Notes under the pieces: generated by a model | What the model was told of the DNA's origin: nothing | The model's database searches: none | What the model saw: only the letters and a program-made list of their open reading frames with translations | Assembly: GCA_019694335.1 (NCBI GenBank) | Contig: JAIBCD010000008.1 | Location: 1-64,000 of the forward strand | DNA length: 64,000 nt | Direction of reading: 5' to 3' | From: Rhodospirillaceae bacterium | GTDB taxonomy: Bacteria; Pseudomonadota; Alphaproteobacteria; Rhodospirillales; Rhodospirillaceae | Part shown: piece by piece, positions 46,631 through 57,103 of the stretch | Numbering within the stretch: the stretch's first letter is position 1 | How the letters are laid out: each line of letters begins with the position of its first letter | Translations under genes and position numbers: made by a program

Positions 46631-46707
46631 GTCCCCGTAGCTCAGCTGGATAGAGCACCAGATTCCTAATCTGGGGGTCGTGCGTTCAAATCGCGCCGGG
46701 GACGCCA
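46631..46707 (+). tRNA. tRNA-Arg (anticodon CCT)
   Basis: The 77-nt gene has an encoded CCA end. The acceptor stem is GTCCCCG/CGGGGAC, the D arm TAGCTCAGCTGGATAGAGC, the anticodon stem CCAGA/TCTGG and the loop TTCCTAA (anticodon at 46665-46667), reading AGG. A serine recombinase gene runs antisense into its 3' half. Confidence 0.96.
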
Positions 46708-48288
46708 ATCCTGCATATAAACGGGAACCGTATTGCTTGGCTTTTTGGCGGTCCCTTCGACGGCTTTAGCCGCCGCCCGCTTAGAGCCGGTGATAATGAT
46801 CTCCCCGTCGGTCACCTCGACGGCATCTATGAACATCTGCAGATAAACCTTCCTTAGCTGGAATTCCCCGTGACGCAGGAGGTTCGATAAGTACTCGGTA
46901 GTCTTGACTATTTCCTGTGACGACACCGGGCGGTCATTGGCGGCGGCACGCTTTTGCAGGCTGCGCTTTGTGTCCCTAGCTTCCCCAAGGCTCATCTCAA
47001 GTGAATGGATACGTTCGCGCACTCTGTTGGGCGCGACCCCTTCTTCGATCGCTTTGACTAATCTATCGAGGCTGGACGTTAGCTCTCGTTCCCGAGCGAC
47101 GACCTCGCGCAACTGGGTTGAAAGTCCGCCGTGCGCTTGCTTCTCGTCCCGACGTACTTCCCGCACGAGTTCAGCCACCCTATCCGGTGCCAGCACTCGT
47201 GCGAGAAGCGTGTCGGTCACGAGATCATCAAGCTTAGGCATGGGTAGGACATTGCCCTTGCACCTTACCGCACCAACGCGCGCTCGCCCGCTACAGGCGT
47301 AATACCGGTAACGCCCGCTCTTGCCAGCGCGAAGCGTCATAGTGGAGCCGCACGATCCGCACTTAACCAACCCTTGGAGAAGAATTGCATTGGTAACAGT
47401 CCGAGAAGGGTTCTTCCTCGGATTACGGTCGGTAAGACGTTTCTGCACTGCCTGAAAGGCGGCGCGATCAATCAAGGTCGGGCATGAGAGCCCTATCCAC
47501 TTGTCGCGCGCTTTCTGGATTTTGCCTTTACTGTCTTTGCGATTGAAGTAGTGGGTTCCGATATATGCCGTGTTCCGCAGAACCTTATGGACGAACTGAA
47601 TGTTGAACGGTTTACCATTGCGCTGCCGCCGGGCCCTTCCATTGAGGTGGTTGACAATGTGCTTTATCCCCATCGGCCCGCTGCGGCCCGTGCCGCTGAG
47701 ATACAGCCTGAAGACATCACGCACGGTAGCAGCCTCGCCGTTGTGAACTGCCAGCTTCTTCTTGGTCTTATGCCCACGCTTCTCGGCGTCCACCACCTTG
47801 TAGCCGAATGGCGGGTGCGAGCCATTCCAGAAGCCTTGGCGAGCGTTCTCTTCCATTGCCCGCAATGTGTGCTTGGCGATCTCCTTGCTTTGGTACTCAT
47901 CCATCATCTGCATTACCTGGCGCATGAACTCGCCTTGTGGTCCGTCATTGACCTCCTGCGTCATCGATACGACCTTCACGCCCTGCTTTGCCAACTGGTG
48001 TATTACCAATTCACTTCCTAAAAGATCGCGGGCAAAGCGCGAGTAACTGTGGATGACAATGATCTCAAACGGGAGAGGACGCTTGCGCGCGTCCGAGAGC
48101 ATTTTCTGAAAGATGGGACGATCAGTGGTCGTAGCGCTGGCTCCCGGCTCCACATATTCCTCGACCACTTGCCAACCCTTGGCTTTGCAGTGTGCCCGAA
48201 GCTGACTTCTCTGGTCTGGGATAGATAAGTCCTGCTCGGCCTGCTTCTTAGTGCTGACCCGCAAATACAGTGCTGCTCTCGTGCTCAT
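46666..48288 (-). CDS. Large serine recombinase (integrase)
   Basis: This 540-aa protein has an N-terminal resolvase domain (YLRVSTKKQAEQDLS, nucleophile Ser12 in RVST), a recombinase domain (PPFGYKVVDA ... VHKVLRNTAYIGTHYFNRKD), and a zinc ribbon (CGSCGSTMT, and further cysteines near YYACSGRARVGAVRCKG). A C-terminal coiled-coil follows (REVVARERELTSSLDRLVKAI). Such enzymes integrate and excise elements. Its last codons (RRDLNARPPD) are the antisense of the tRNA-Arg gene, so insertion beside the tRNA supplied the stop. It overlaps the upstream small gene by 4 bp. Confidence 0.93.
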   Translation of the reverse strand: MSTRAALYLRVSTKKQAEQDLSIPDQRSQLRAHCKAKGWQVVEEYVEPGASATTTDRPIFQKMLSDARKRPLPFEIIVIHSYSRFARDLLGSELVIHQLAKQGVKVVSMTQEVNDGPQGEFMRQVMQMMDEYQSKEIAKHTLRAMEENARQGFWNGSHPPFGYKVVDAEKRGHKTKKKLAVHNGEAATVRDVFRLYLSGTGRSGPMGIKHIVNHLNGRARRQRNGKPFNIQFVHKVLRNTAYIGTHYFNRKDSKGKIQKARDKWIGLSCPTLIDRAAFQAVQKRLTDRNPRKNPSRTVTNAILLQGLVKCGSCGSTMTLRAGKSGRYRYYACSGRARVGAVRCKGNVLPMPKLDDLVTDTLLARVLAPDRVAELVREVRRDEKQAHGGLSTQLREVVARERELTSSLDRLVKAIEEGVAPNRVRERIHSLEMSLGEARDTKRSLQKRAAANDRPVSSQEIVKTTEYLSNLLRHGEFQLRKVYLQMFIDAVEVTDGEIIITGSKRAAAKAVEGTAKKPSNTVPVYMQDWRPRRDLNARPPD

Positions 48289-48690: not shown

Positions 48691-49857
48691 TCATAGAGCC
48701 GAGAAGAAGTCGAGGTGCCGCGCAAGCCATAACGCGGCATTGCGATAGCGGTGTGTGGTTGCGCTTCGACCGCGCCCTTGAAATTGAAGCACACCTCTTG
48801 CGCGCAAACGATCAAGAACATCGGCTGCCTGGTTGTTTAGTATCGCGTCATTTCGAGCAATGATTTCAAGCAGCTCCAATGCGAGGTGAATGTCTCTGGT
48901 CGCGCTTGCAAATTGTGCAAACATCTCCGCAGGCGTCTCTCGTAGTACCGCCAACGCGGAACTATGCCTGACCGACCGAGGAAGGAGTTGGAGAGCATCG
49001 TTGACCTGCGACGCCGCAACTAGCGCAATTGGATGAAAAAGATCTGCGAAACTTTCGCCGCCTTCAAAGAGACGCCGAGACGCTGACCTCCGTTCTGAAT
49101 GGCGGAGGACGGCACGCAATCCATCTTCATGGAATTGCGCTTCTATACGTACTCGTCGGTTTGTTTTCGGATATGCCTTATAGCGTTCTCCCTCACGCCG
49201 ATACCCCGACACCATCGTCACGTCTTCATGTGTCTCGACAGTTTGCACGGTGCTGGCATATGCGCTTTCGATCTGATGCTGAAAGAGGCGCCTAAATGGA
49301 CGCTTGAGGCTATCGACAACCGCTCGCGGGCATTCGGAAGCCATGTCGAAGGCAACCTCAAGGCCACAGAGTGTTGTTTCTTGAGGAAGCGCAAGGCTGG
49401 GTTGATCCATGTTTTCGGCGATCGCCGTGACAAGAGAGGCGATCTGCTGTTGTATCCGTTGAATTAGGCCATCTACCGTATAAACGACGCCGGTATTATC
49501 GCGCGATGCGACGTTATCCGGCAGGAAGTTTGTTCGCTCACGCAGAGGGCGCTCCCGAGTGCTAAATCGGCGCGCGTTCCAAAGATTGGCGAGAGGATTA
49601 AGTGTAACGCGACACCGAATAACTCCCCTTGCTGTGCCCGTTATGACGAAGTTTGCGGGGGCCGTATCGCCTTGAAGCAGCCCTTGGAGGCCCCAGGGCT
49701 TTCTAAGACGGCGCAAGCCTATCTCGGCGGATGAGCCAGCCGCCCTGAACATGCGGAAGGGACGTGGCGGCGTTAAAGCAAAGGTGCAATTGATAATGAC
49801 GCCATCTGGGACCGCATCTAGGTGTGTGAGTGGCAGCATTAGGTTCGGCAACGGCAT
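48691..49857 (-). CDS. Unknown island protein with a C-terminal winged-helix-like segment
   Basis: This 388-aa protein is not assigned to a family. The ATG at 49857 has an AAGGAGGG site directly upstream. A middle section with GYRREGERYKAYPKTNRRVRIEAQFHEDG has a charged YxKTxxRxRxE pattern reminiscent of replication initiators of single-stranded DNA elements. The last 60 residues (LNNQAADVLDRLRARGVLQFQGRGRSATTHRYRNAALWL) look like a winged-helix domain with a basic wing. It is the first gene of the recombinase operon. A DNA-binding or replication role for the element is inference. Confidence 0.65.
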   Translation of the reverse strand: MPLPNLMLPLTHLDAVPDGVIINCTFALTPPRPFRMFRAAGSSAEIGLRRLRKPWGLQGLLQGDTAPANFVITGTARGVIRCRVTLNPLANLWNARRFSTRERPLRERTNFLPDNVASRDNTGVVYTVDGLIQRIQQQIASLVTAIAENMDQPSLALPQETTLCGLEVAFDMASECPRAVVDSLKRPFRRLFQHQIESAYASTVQTVETHEDVTMVSGYRREGERYKAYPKTNRRVRIEAQFHEDGLRAVLRHSERRSASRRLFEGGESFADLFHPIALVAASQVNDALQLLPRSVRHSSALAVLRETPAEMFAQFASATRDIHLALELLEIIARNDAILNNQAADVLDRLRARGVLQFQGRGRSATTHRYRNAALWLARHLDFFSAL

Positions 49858-49965
49858 ATGACCCTCCTTATCCAATAAAGGCGTCGTCCGGTGCAGACGT
49901 GCTGCTACATGGCCGACGCAGAGGGCCGCATAGGAAACTGTTCGATGCCGTAAATCGTGTACGTG

Positions 49966-50619: not shown

Positions 50620-51004
50620 TGGGCGATCATTGAAAAGTTGCCCGCCATTTATATGACTTGGGCTATGAGTGGGGGTCTAGGGCCTGCTCTCAGTTTTCCG
50701 AAAACGGATATACCGCAATAGTGATTGGTTCGTCCGCCCCAATGTACGGTGCCTATTGCGGCGGTGAGTTGGTTTGCAGACGTTTGCAAAGGCGTATGCC
50801 GTCCGATTTCACCTGGGATGATCATGAGCCATTTCTAACGCCTTTGACCGCAGTCCGAACGGCGGTGATTTCGAAGCTGTGATAGCGACTTACCGAATAC
50901 CTGCGTGCGCTATTTCTTACGCCTAAAGGGGCGGGAAAGCATGGTGATCAGATGAATAGTACAAATCTGATAGAGGCCGTGCGCCCCCATATTCCGCTCC
51001 TAGC
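50620..51004. other. Island intergenic region with a semi-palindromic repeat
   Basis: No convincing gene was found. It contains TTTGCAGACGTTTGCAAAGG at 50773-50792, the most diverged of three copies of a semi-palindrome (the others at 52407 and 56976). Confidence 0.5.
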
Positions 51005-52406: not shown

Positions 52407-52426
52407 TTTGCAAATGTTTGCAAGCG
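52407..52426 (+). repeat. Semi-palindromic repeat, left copy
   Basis: TTTGCAAATGTTTGCAAGCG, with TTGCAAA.../...TTTGCAA arms. It matches 56976-56995 at 18 of 20 positions in the same orientation and lies just beyond the exonuclease gene. Confidence 0.7.
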
Positions 52427-52478: not shown

Positions 52479-53228
52479 TCAGGCGGCGGATTGAATTTCC
52501 GAAAAGCCCTTAAGATGGGGCTTTGAACTTGCGTGGGCTAGGACGAAATCTTTCAAGTTGCTCTCGCTTGCTTTGAATTCGGTATCCGTAAGCCGGCCCC
52601 GAAATAATTCGTACCGCAGCCAAATTTGATAGGTATTCAACACATCTGTTTCGCAATAGTCGGCGATCTCTTTGATCCGGCCATTCTGAAAATAGGTCGC
52701 CACCTCGCTTCCATCTATCTCTGCCGGTTTACCGGAGAGCCCGAGCGCAATGCTAATCTCGTGCATTGTGGCCTTGCCGTTGGGCGTGAACGATGCCAGA
52801 GCATCACAAAGGTCGAGCGCGTCATCGGAATAGCGATTGAAGTAAGGCCTGGCCGACAAACCTGGCGCAGAAACCCCATTAATCATTGCGCGATACCTAA
52901 TAACCGGAAGATCAAAGCTGTGACCGTTAAAGGTCACCAGTTGAGGATGCAGCTGAGCAATACGGTCAACGAAAGCGGTGATAAGCGCTTTTTCTGTGCG
53001 CTCGCCGATATGCGGGGCACCGATAGCATCCACCGTCCAGACATCGGTTTCTCTGTGCGCGATAAGCGCTCCAATGCACACGATGGAATGATACGGAAGC
53101 TTTGGAAATTTCGCCCCTAATGCTTCTCGAATTGTTTGATCATCCTTGCCCGCGAGATCGTTTGCAGCGCCCCAACGGGCGAGATCCGGAACGGTCTCGA
53201 TATCCCAAACGATCACATACTGAACCAT
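52479..53228 (-). CDS. Predicted 3'-5' exonuclease, PolB-exonuclease-like
   Basis: This 249-aa DEDD-superfamily nuclease matches the family of predicted exonucleases related to the proofreading domain of DNA polymerase B. Exo I is WDIETVPDL (D9, E11), Exo II is VTFNGHSFDLPVI (D106), and Exo III is DYCETDVLNTY (D195). It would degrade DNA or RNA from 3' ends. It starts 15 bp after the XRE regulator gene with a strong AGGGGG site, so both are co-transcribed away from CBASS. Whether it takes part in defence is unknown. Confidence 0.85.
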   Translation of the reverse strand: MVQYVIVWDIETVPDLARWGAANDLAGKDDQTIREALGAKFPKLPYHSIVCIGALIAHRETDVWTVDAIGAPHIGERTEKALITAFVDRIAQLHPQLVTFNGHSFDLPVIRYRAMINGVSAPGLSARPYFNRYSDDALDLCDALASFTPNGKATMHEISIALGLSGKPAEIDGSEVATYFQNGRIKEIADYCETDVLNTYQIWLRYELFRGRLTDTEFKASESNLKDFVLAHASSKPHLKGFSEIQSAA

Positions 53229-53243
53229 TATCGCCCCCTAGTT

Positions 53244-54032
53244 TCAAAAAGGGATCACGTCGTCATACCATTCCAACCAACTGTCATCGACTTTTTCACC
53301 AACCTCCTTGCGTCGTTTTAGAAAGTTGATGGCCTCTGGTATGGACAGGCCTTCATTTATTGGCCATGCAATATCTCTTTGATCACTCTTGGAAAAAACG
53401 ACGAGCAAGATCATATCGGTCTCGATAAACCACACTTCGCGCATTTCGCCGTATGGATCAGGATGGCGAAAATCAGAGCGGCGCCTGGGGTAAAGTCCGG
53501 CAAAAATGTGAATGCCGCTCGCCGCCAACGTCGAAAACCGCTCGCCGATCTTGCCCATCATCTTCACTCGACCGGACGCGAGGCGAATATCTGACAAGTT
53601 GTCTTCGTCCCGTTTCGACTGGCGCACCTCTCCCACGCTTTCGATGAGCTCTGAAATTTCATTTGCGGTTTTTTCATTCAGGTCGAAATCACATTCGACT
53701 TCTATTCGAGGCAAGGTGGCCTCAGTAGCGCGATCAATGAGCATTGCAGCGCGCGGTATAGCCACCAGACGGAGCACCTTGGAAGGCGCAGGAACTCGAC
53801 CCTCGCTTTCGTGCGATCCACCTGCCGGAAGCGTTACTTCAGCTTCCGGCACTTTTAGCGCCTGAGCGATTGCGTTCAGGGAGCGGGCACGAATTGGTTC
53901 CCCCCGCTCGGCGCGCTCCAATGTCCGGAGGGCGATTTCGGGGTTGCGGGCCAACAGCTCTTTTCTCGTGGAAAATCCCTTCCGATTTCGAAGTTCGATC
54001 AGTTTCTTGCCGTCTGGTTTCACGGTGCCCAT
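53244..54032 (-). CDS. XRE-type transcriptional regulator with an unknown C-terminal domain
   Basis: This 262-aa protein has an N-terminal Cro/C1-type helix-turn-helix (KLIELRNRKGFSTRKELLARNPEIALRTLERAERGEPIRARSLNAIAQAL, residues about 10-58). A linker and a C-terminal alpha/beta region without recognised family follow (VECDFDLNEKTANEISELIESVGEVRQ ... EVWFIETDMILLVVFSKSDQRDI). The C-terminal part could sense a ligand. It diverges from the CBASS cyclase gene and is followed by the exonuclease gene. Five phased CCGCCA-type repeats lie 44-92 bp upstream of its start and are candidate binding sites. Confidence 0.82.
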   Translation of the reverse strand: MGTVKPDGKKLIELRNRKGFSTRKELLARNPEIALRTLERAERGEPIRARSLNAIAQALKVPEAEVTLPAGGSHESEGRVPAPSKVLRLVAIPRAAMLIDRATEATLPRIEVECDFDLNEKTANEISELIESVGEVRQSKRDEDNLSDIRLASGRVKMMGKIGERFSTLAASGIHIFAGLYPRRRSDFRHPDPYGEMREVWFIETDMILLVVFSKSDQRDIAWPINEGLSIPEAINFLKRRKEVGEKVDDSWLEWYDDVIPF

Positions 54033-54365: not shown

Positions 54366-55802
54366 ATGAAACTGACCGCACATTTCGAAAAGTTCCTTGA
54401 AGAAGAAGTGAACCTGAACAAGTCGCGGATAAAAACGCTCGTTGATAAGACGAACACGATTTCCGAATTCATCTCAAATAGCGACTGGGGCCCGAAGCAG
54501 CTGGGATTTTCGGCGCAAGGTTCATGGGCGCACAAGACGATCATCAAGCCGCCGGGTTCGGCGGGGTACGATGCCGATCTTCTCGCGTATGTAAGCCCGG
54601 TAATTGGTTGGACGCCGAAGGACTACGTATTGAACCTGCGTCGCGTCTTCCTAGCATCAAAGACTTATGAGGACAAAGTTTCCTTAGGAAACAGATGCGT
54701 AATCATTAGCTATCCGAACGATTTCAGTCTCGACCTGGTCCCATGCGTCGTTGACCGCGTGGCAAGACCTTCGCGGTTCGAGGTCTGTAACCGCACTGAC
54801 GAAAAATTCGAACCTACCAATTCTGAGATGTTCACCCGATGGCTTGAACAGCGCAATGCTTGGTGCGGTAACAACCGATTGCGCGAGGTGTTACGACTTC
54901 TCAAGTATCTCCGGGACGTCAAGACAACATTCAGCTGTAAATCTGTCCTGCTAACGACTTTGGTCGCAGGGACCGTTACAGCCAACGACGCCATGTCTCC
55001 GGCATTCGCCGACCCAGCGACCAGCTTGAAAACTTTGGTCAACAGGCTCGATCAATACCTTCAGGCCCGTCCGCGATTACACAAGGTAACAAACCCCGTT
55101 TTGCCCTGTGAGGATTTCGTTCGACATTGGGATGACGAGAAGTACGAAAACTTCCGCGACATGGTCCACAAATACAGTGGCTGGATAGATGATGCGTTCA
55201 ACGACGGCGTTGAAAGCTCCAGCATAACAAAATGGCGCCGCTTGTTCGGCGATGAGTTTGCGCGCGGCACGGATATTGCCGAAGCCGCCATCTCCGAAGC
55301 CACTCTGCCCGCTATTACGAAAAGTTTCACAGCCCGAGATGCTGTAGATGCTGTGATAACAATGGGCCGAGCAATACTCGCCCAAGTGCCGCGCACACTC
55401 CCGTGGGTAAAGCCAGCGCCTTTTAAAATTGTCACTCAGCAGCTGGCCGGCGTCTCGATCCGCGCGACGCGGTATGATCGACGCGACGGGAACCCACTGG
55501 GGGCTATCACTTCTGGGTCTGTTGTTCCAAAGCACACGCAAATATTATTCGAAGCGTTGGCATCGAACGGTGTTCCGTTAATTGCCCGGGACTTTGTCGT
55601 ACAATGGCGCGTCGTAAATACTGACCGGGACGCGCTTACAGCCCACGCGCTTCGGGGTGGTTTTTACTCCTCACACAAGCCCGGCCGACGATGGGAAACT
55701 GCGGAATATCGCGGCGTCCATTGGATAGAAGCGTTCGTATTGCGAAAGCGTGACAATATGTGCGTCGGGTACAGTGATCGCTTCTTCGTCATAATCGAGT
55801 GA
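54366..55802 (+). CDS. CBASS nucleotidyltransferase (CD-NTase) with AGS-C-like sensor domain
   Basis: This 478-aa cGAS/DncV-like enzyme should make a cyclic oligonucleotide signal on phage infection. The Pol-beta-type active site is complete: QGSWAHKT (G52, S53), YDADLLAYV (D69, D71) and FSLDLVPCV (D123). A helical OAS1-C-like part follows at about 140-320. The C-terminal 95 residues (PKHTQILFEALASNGVPLIARDFVVQWRVVNTD ... RWETAEYRGVHWIEAFVLRKRDNMCVGYSDRFFV) match the AGS-C sensor domain linked to SMODS cyclases. The gene is followed 6 bp later by the effector. The clade and nucleotide product cannot be assigned by eye. Confidence 0.88.
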   Translation: MKLTAHFEKFLEEEVNLNKSRIKTLVDKTNTISEFISNSDWGPKQLGFSAQGSWAHKTIIKPPGSAGYDADLLAYVSPVIGWTPKDYVLNLRRVFLASKTYEDKVSLGNRCVIISYPNDFSLDLVPCVVDRVARPSRFEVCNRTDEKFEPTNSEMFTRWLEQRNAWCGNNRLREVLRLLKYLRDVKTTFSCKSVLLTTLVAGTVTANDAMSPAFADPATSLKTLVNRLDQYLQARPRLHKVTNPVLPCEDFVRHWDDEKYENFRDMVHKYSGWIDDAFNDGVESSSITKWRRLFGDEFARGTDIAEAAISEATLPAITKSFTARDAVDAVITMGRAILAQVPRTLPWVKPAPFKIVTQQLAGVSIRATRYDRRDGNPLGAITSGSVVPKHTQILFEALASNGVPLIARDFVVQWRVVNTDRDALTAHALRGGFYSSHKPGRRWETAEYRGVHWIEAFVLRKRDNMCVGYSDRFFVIIE

Positions 55803-55808
55803 AACAAG

Positions 55809-56915
55809 ATGGTATCGGTGAAAACTAGGGCCGTCCTATGGGCGCGGGGCGCTGGACGCTGCTACTATTGCAACCGTTCGCTCATTGGCGACTATGAAAG
55901 CGGAAATGAGGACGGGAATTTCGGCTTCGTTGCGCACATTGTCGCCGATACGCCAGGCGGCCCGCGCGGCGACCGCGTCAGATCTTCGCTGTTAAGCGAC
56001 AGCGCAGCGAACCTGATGCTCTTATGTTACCCGCACCATAAGCTGGTCGATGTAGACGAACTCGCAAATTATCCAGAAGCGCGGCTATTAGAGATGAAGA
56101 CCGCGCACGAGGATCGCGTGCGCATTGTCACCGACTTGGCACCAGATCGAGCATCTCACGTCCTGCGTTATGGCGCGAAAGTTGGTGATCACAATTCTCT
56201 CGTTGCCTATGGCCGCGTTAAGGATGCCATGATGCCACGCCGGTATCCGGCCAACGGTTCATCAATTGGGATTGAGATTATCGGCAGCGTCCTGACGGAT
56301 GGGGAAGACCAATTTTGGAGTGTCGAGCCCACTAATCTTAGTCGTCAGTTTAACACCTTGGTTAAGTCGCGCATCGAAGCTCGCGATATCGCTCACCTCT
56401 CTGTATTCGCTTTAGCGCCGATCCCGCTCTTGGTTCAGCTAGGGGCACTGTTGGGCGACATTACGCCAGCCGACATCTACCAGCTGCATAGAGAGCCAGC
56501 AGGGTGGAATTGGGCAGAAGATGGAAATCGGATCGAGTTTTTACTGCGCCGCCCGACGGCAATTCATAAAAATGTTGCGTTGAAACTGGCCATCAGCGCT
56601 GACATTACCGATCGACGCGTCGTGGAGGTGATGGGCGAGGACGTATCGATCTGGGGGCTCGGAGTGAAATGTCCAGGTAATGACGTAATGCGCAACTCGG
56701 CCGATTTGGTCGAATTTCGGCGGCTGATACGCTCGATTTATAACGATATTAAGACCACCCATGGCGAAGACGCGCTTATACACGTTTTTCCGGCGATACC
56801 CGTATCGTGTGCTGTGGAATTAGGCCGCGTTCGAATGCCTAAAGCGGATTTGCCCTTAAGAGTTTACGACCAGACAGCTGGAGCTGGGTTCAGACCGCGA
56901 TTGACCGTACCGTAA
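55809..56915 (+). CDS. cap5: Cap5-like HNH-SAVED CBASS effector nuclease
   Basis: This 368-aa effector has an N-terminal HNH endonuclease: CYYCNRSL (C18, C21), FVAHIVADTPGGPRGD (H43), and NLMLLCYPHHKLVD (N68, C73, H76, H77). The rest, from about residue 135, forms a SAVED domain (IGIEIIGSVLTDGEDQFWSV, FALAPIPLLVQLGALLGDITPADIYQLHREP, VFPAIPVSCAVELGRVRMP), which binds cyclic oligonucleotides in Cap5. Known Cap5 proteins degrade double-stranded DNA once the SAVED domain binds its ligand. It is directly downstream of the cyclase, and no Cap2/Cap3 or HORMA/TRIP13 genes are present. Confidence 0.88.
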   Translation: MVSVKTRAVLWARGAGRCYYCNRSLIGDYESGNEDGNFGFVAHIVADTPGGPRGDRVRSSLLSDSAANLMLLCYPHHKLVDVDELANYPEARLLEMKTAHEDRVRIVTDLAPDRASHVLRYGAKVGDHNSLVAYGRVKDAMMPRRYPANGSSIGIEIIGSVLTDGEDQFWSVEPTNLSRQFNTLVKSRIEARDIAHLSVFALAPIPLLVQLGALLGDITPADIYQLHREPAGWNWAEDGNRIEFLLRRPTAIHKNVALKLAISADITDRRVVEVMGEDVSIWGLGVKCPGNDVMRNSADLVEFRRLIRSIYNDIKTTHGEDALIHVFPAIPVSCAVELGRVRMPKADLPLRVYDQTAGAGFRPRLTVP

Positions 56916-56975: not shown

Positions 56976-56995
56976 TTTGCAAACGATTGCAAGCG
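56976..56995 (+). repeat. Semi-palindromic repeat, right copy
   Basis: TTTGCAAACGATTGCAAGCG is a direct repeat of 52407-52426 with two mismatches. It lies 60 bp after the cap5 stop and is the last island-like feature. Confidence 0.7.
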
Positions 56996-57058
56996 CCGGA
57001 GGGCTTGGCGATATCTTTCCTCCCACGCATAATGATTACGCGCGTTTTAGCGTGATCC

Positions 57059-57103
57059 GCCAGCGGTTCTCTTTTCCGCCTCTGCTGGCACGCCCTTTTT
57101 TTT
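57059..57103 (+). terminator. Possible terminator at the island right end
   Basis: GCCAGC/GCTGGC outer arms and GCGG/CCGC inner arms are followed by CCCTTTTTTTTG. It could end CBASS transcription about 150 bp after cap5. Confidence 0.45.

Follow-up and report, generated by a model that had tools for sequence, protein, structure and literature searches.

A two-gene CBASS pairing an AGS-C-bearing cyclase with a Cap5 nuclease in a tRNA-Arg island of a Rhodospirillaceae bacterium

Cyclic-oligonucleotide-based anti-phage signalling systems (CBASS) that use the effector Cap5, a fusion of an HNH endonuclease with a ligand-sensing SAVED domain, have been described with CdnG cyclases in three-gene operons classed as type II (short), and DNA degradation has been demonstrated for Cap5 homologues (PMC8568899; structure 7rwk). 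A second described kind of CBASS joins an AGS-C-bearing cGAS/DncV-like nucleotidyltransferase (CD-NTase) of the PADLOC PDLC00793 family to a four-transmembrane (4TM) effector. Here we analyse a gene pair that resembles each of these in one half, at positions 54366 to 56915 of a 64,000-nucleotide stretch (the window) from a Rhodospirillaceae bacterium (contig JAIBCD010000008.1). With the CdnG–Cap5 systems it shares the Cap5 family (phmmer match to PDB 7rwk at 2.3e-103 across residues 2-360) and the key pocket residues, but its cyclase carries an AGS-C domain and has a core nearer to CdnD, and the pair lacks a third gene and any E2 match. With the AGS-C CD-NTase–4TM systems it shares the cyclase family over its full length, but has Cap5 in place of a membrane-protein effector. 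We conclude that the pair is a type I (two-gene) CBASS of a known kind, and we put at roughly 85% the probability that it is cargo of a tRNA-Arg integrative element in which Cap5 kills or arrests the cell in response to a cyclic nucleotide signal.

Both reading frames are open and lie in tandem, 6 bp apart (Table 1). The first protein matches Pfam SMODS at its N terminus (1.5e-34) and Pfam AGS_C at residues 363-478 (5.5e-16, above the curated cut-off), and PDLC00793 covers its full length (4.8e-160). Its active-site residues G52, S53, D69-x-D71 and D123 are present and are invariant in 36 aligned sequences, that of the window included. The preliminary description of this DNA, made from its letters alone, had proposed a CD-NTase with an intact active site and an AGS-C-like C-terminal domain, and both assignments hold. 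None of the three NCBIfam CBASS cyclase models that match reaches its cut-off (the best scores 55.5 bits where 150 is required), which places the cyclase outside NCBI's named equivalogs. A search of the window's own genome with the cyclase returned a single match, the cyclase itself. The second protein matches Pfam SAVED (1.4e-47), the PADLOC CBASS endonuclease effector model PDLC00739 (8.3e-144) and SAVED_HNH (4.2e-134), so the proposed Cap5 architecture is likewise borne out by full-length matches. A Pfam scan of this protein gave no HNH match; the HNH half was assigned from the full-length PADLOC and 7rwk alignments together with motifs read by eye. Seven tblastn queries representing Cap2, Cap3 and E2 found no relative anywhere in the window (E 1e-3), as the preliminary description had stated for Cap2 and Cap3. 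It is this absence, beside an intact CD-NTase and an adjoining effector gene, that makes the pair type I. The further claim that HORMA and TRIP13 genes are lacking was covered in part: a PADLOC scan of six island proteins, the pair included, matched the pair alone, and no dedicated HORMA/TRIP13 search of the window was made.

Table 1 Features of the CBASS pair and its island (positions in the window)
Feature	Position	Strand	Evidence
CD-NTase (oligonucleotide cyclase), NTase core and AGS-C, 478 aa	54366..55802	+	SMODS, AGS_C, PADLOC
AGS-C domain, residues 363-478, predicted Ig-like beta sandwich	55452..55799	+	Pfam AGS_C
Cap5 effector, HNH endonuclease-SAVED fusion, 368 aa	55809..56915	+	PADLOC PDLC00739, SAVED_HNH; 7rwk_A 2.3e-103
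SAVED ligand-sensing domain, residues 177-366	56337..56906	+	Pfam SAVED; pocket residues align with LlCap5
Large serine recombinase (island integrase), 3' end overlapping the tRNA	46666..48288	-	Pfam Resolvase, Recombinase, Zn_ribbon_recom
tRNA-Arg (CCT), island insertion site	46631..46707	+	ARAGORN

The tRNA-island setting given in the preliminary description was also recovered, with the serine integrase beside the tRNA-Arg. This tRNA follows an HSP20 gene in nine of the ten congeners examined; the remaining contig, that of G006, stops short of it. G004, whose HSP20 is 95% identical, has the tRNA and lacks the island, and G003 holds about 5 kb extra between the HSP20 gene and the tRNA. At the same tRNA, G002 carries an integrase 54% identical to that of the window, a resolvase relative (68%) and a relative of the gene at 48691-49875 (24%); this stretch (L150:2263-8031) is a sister integrative element. 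The island's right end falls beyond 56915 and perhaps ahead of 57055. A 44-bp stretch of G004 matches the window at 57055-57098; G007, though, has two stretches resembling it, which makes the match a weak anchor for the island end, and a search for a direct repeat of the tRNA end came up empty. The PPK2 neighbourhoods of five congeners and one family member, considered as well, held no tRNA-Arg.

Among 297 genomes of the order, the cyclase has a match in seven (E 0.001), and this is full length with at least 42% identity in three: the window's own genome, G158 and G180; the match in G139 is distant (~25%). The cyclase relative stands beside a CapV relative in G158 and beside a 4TM relative in G180. 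Cap5 has a match in 20 of these genomes, and only that of the window extends past about residue 160. The system is thus rare in its lineage, and this rarity together with the island setting means that the pair is best read as horizontally acquired cargo. That Cap5 is the only full-length one in the order would also suit a silent island remnant, with intact genes that have no expression or function in this host, as would the lack of a promoter-like site upstream of the cyclase in a search that covered one promoter type. Against a silent remnant, which we consider very unlikely, stand two uninterrupted reading frames, an undamaged set of catalytic residues and the conservation of the pair in L008 and L010, the nearest relatives of the cyclase.

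Beyond what was observed directly (the gene identities and order, the intact catalytic and pocket residues, the lack of a Cap2, Cap3 or E2 relative and the island setting), a mechanism can be proposed for this CBASS. Phage infection would switch the CD-NTase on, most likely through its own Ig-like AGS-C domain and not through Cap2 or HORMA helpers. The product would be a cyclic oligonucleotide, most likely a cyclic GMP-AMP (cGAMP), and Cap5 makes 3',2'-cGAMP the best guess. Binding of this signal by the SAVED domain would activate the HNH nuclease, which would degrade DNA, as Cap5 homologues do; death or arrest of the cell would then stop the phage.

The proposed ligand follows from the Cap5 pocket. 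Residues L202, R228, S263 and R270 occupy the positions of I208, R234, S274 and R281 of LlCap5, and the residues by which LlCap5 recognizes the guanine and the 2'-5' linkage are conserved among them; N291 stands at the position of LlCap5 F304, as in AsCap5. The window protein also has D217, R308, K345 and D347, which align with AsCap5 D220, R310, K347 and D349 (correspondence assigned by hand from the 7rwk alignment), and mutation of these AsCap5 residues lowers activity. AsCap5 and LlCap5 are both described in PMC8568899; by our own reading 7rwk is probably AsCap5 and 7rwm LlCap5, because R231 and R234 of that paper then share one alignment column.

We surveyed the effectors of related cyclases in 87 neighbourhoods: 80 kept from the 94 relatives found in one GTDB contig scan, six plasmid records (six opened of the 20 with a cyclase match) and the window. 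The effector was called from the best tblastn score within 2.5 kb of the cyclase. 4TM proteins were found in 61 neighbourhoods (two kinds, in 32 and 29), a CapV-type phospholipase in 16, Cap5 in six (L007, L008, L010, L072, L078 and the window) and none of these in four; PADLOC confirmed representatives of the 4TM (L002, L003, L038) and phospholipase (L009) groups. The suggestion that an AGS-C-bearing cyclase joined to Cap5 may be new did not survive in its general form, since the same pairing occurs in L007, L008, L010, L072 and the viral contig L163; two of these, the plasmid L007 and L163, lie outside the main clade. What stood is its rarity within the order. The pairing is uncommon among related cyclases, and not new. 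In L163 (242-5903) the two genes lie between genes that resemble by eye type I restriction M and S subunits.

For 85 cyclases we built a quick tree, with branches judged by the SH-like approximate likelihood ratio test (SH-aLRT) only and with long-branch warnings; L042, L066, L073, L074 and L077 were left out for stops or shortness. The tree groups the window with L008 (SH-aLRT 99), a metagenome bin in which the pair has the gene order of the window, and then with L010 (95), where the two genes are divergent; all three have Cap5. The Cap5 label needs four changes on this tree, at least three by starred branches. The Cap5 tree also pairs the window with L008 (91/98) but places L010 among the Cap5s of systems with AGS-C-less cyclases (94/97, then 81/71), a placement that makes repeated uptake of Cap5 possible.

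We then looked at Cap5 from the other side, opening 12 of the 200 plasmid records in which Cap5 has a match. Eleven hold a cyclase in the cluster of Cap5, AGS_C-less by Pfam in every case, which we call CdnG-like by analogy with PMC8568899; no cyclase was seen in the twelfth, L094. A Cap2 or E2 relative is present in ten of the 11 clusters, the exception being L096, which has an unassigned 233-aa open reading frame and no Cap2 or E2 relative. Because the relatives of Cap5 thus stand mostly with an AGS-C-less cyclase and Cap2 or E2, an effector swap likely lies behind the window pair. An alternative reading treats the pair as a chimera: the cyclase would produce some non-cGAMP signal, such as the kind of cyclic trinucleotide made by CdnD, and this Cap5 lineage would have changed its ligand accordingly. 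The structure of the cyclase core, which is closest to CdnD, weighs against a cGAMP signal and in favour of this alternative, as do the prevalence of 4TM and CapV effectors among related cyclases and the missing AGS_C in all 11 Cap5-linked cyclases. The conserved linkage- and guanine-reading residues of the window Cap5 speak the other way, and we consider a non-cGAMP chimera unlikely on balance; with a pocket that fits 3',2'-cGAMP but a core most like CdnD, the assignment of the signal is provisional. The guanine-reading arginine is replaced by E in the Cap5 of L072 and by Q in that of L078, so these two actinobacterial proteins may, from their sequences, have a different ligand.

To our knowledge, how type I CBASS sense phage without helper genes is poorly understood, and the distribution of AGS-C and Cap2 in the main clade is the part of this analysis most worth specialist attention. 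Ten cyclases of the clade are short (328-331 aa), and Pfam found AGS_C in none of the seven scanned (L078, L079, L080, L081, L082, L086 and L087). A Cap2 relative lies within 2.5 kb of all ten, against none of the 70 full-length members (Fisher p 6e-13), with seven broken or contig-end fragments set apart from the count (L042, L066, L073, L074, L077, L060 and L070). AGS_C was found in all 36 full-length members scanned together; for the rest, sequence length and alignment were the basis of the call. L078 and one tight clade make up the ten short cyclases, so the contrast rests on one or two evolutionary events. In one locus, L056, a Cap3-like match lies within 2.5 kb and a Cap2-like match about 3 kb off on the other strand. 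Outside the clade, AGS_C was detected in L006 and L007, with no Cap2, Cap3 or E2 match; the L163 neighbours were read by eye as restriction-modification genes. E2 relatives occur in nine of the 70 full-length loci and in three fragments, and all 12 of these loci also have a second, CdnG-like cyclase, AGS_C-less in the one tested (L038).

By structure comparison, the AGS-C domain of the window folds like the Ig-like AGS-C of the Pycsar cyclase EcPycC. Foldseek returned 9ard only at E 1.3e-3, tied with unrelated proteins, and VIA-align 2 separated 9ard; a PDB sequence search found no chain matching this part of the cyclase, and the match list for the whole cyclase structure is no test of AGS-C. 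Pycsar cyclases have a different catalytic fold and make cyclic CMP or cyclic UMP. Taken together with the Cap2 counts, the fold suggests that AGS-C may take the place of Cap2 as a built-in part of the cyclase. The fuller proposal is tentative, and we hold it a little short of even odds: AGS-C would be a sensor or activator module common to Pycsar cyclases, cyclases of the clade would carry either it or a Cap2 partner but never the two together, and the window pair would be a natural chimera of such a self-sensing cyclase with the effector of Cap2/E2-dependent systems. We did not find this pattern in print in the open-licence literature, a search that left subscription journals mostly outside. 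Should AGS-C and Cap2 prove to be alternatives, a single domain of about 115 residues, shared with Pycsar, would be the place to look for what triggers AGS-C-bearing systems. The window pair would offer a direct test, with Cap5 as a reporter, because its homologues have known ligands, for the product of a cyclase family mostly paired with 4TM effectors. In PMC7288161 the name "AGS-C" denotes the helical region at the C terminus of DncV, as distinct from the Ig-like Pfam AGS_C domain of this analysis.

The 12 two-cyclase loci among the 87 neighbourhoods (L016, L017, L024, L038, L041, L042, L046, L047, L050, L051, L066 and L070) have, next to the AGS-C cyclase and its 4TM effector, a further cyclase of the CdnG-like kind together with an E2 relative. 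In L038 the order is CdnG-like cyclase, E2, 4TM and AGS-C cyclase, each called by PADLOC. These loci are possibly composite two-cyclase CBASS. A Roseovarius plasmid (L093:439-7941) carries cyclase, Cap2, Cap3 and Cap5 genes as an operon of their own; directly after it come an AGS-C cyclase from outside the clade and a SAVED-2TM effector. A DUF2235-like gene family, recognized by eye, stands beside AGS-C cyclases in L044, L055, L067, L076 and L077; the L055 member has no PADLOC match.

Within the island, a gene with helix-turn-helix (HTH)-like features read by eye and no Pfam match (53244-54032, minus strand) adjoins a gene for a PF10108 predicted exonuclease (52479-53228, minus strand). Their position next to the cyclase, in divergent orientation, might suggest that both are working parts of the CBASS, the HTH-like one as its regulator. 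We think this improbable, as no relative of either was found in the 86 other cyclase loci (E 1e-4). A palindrome-like motif (about TTTGCAAACGTTTGCAA) recurs within the island and immediately after Cap5 (50773-50792, 52407-52426 and 56976-56995), and is a possible regulator or recombinase site.
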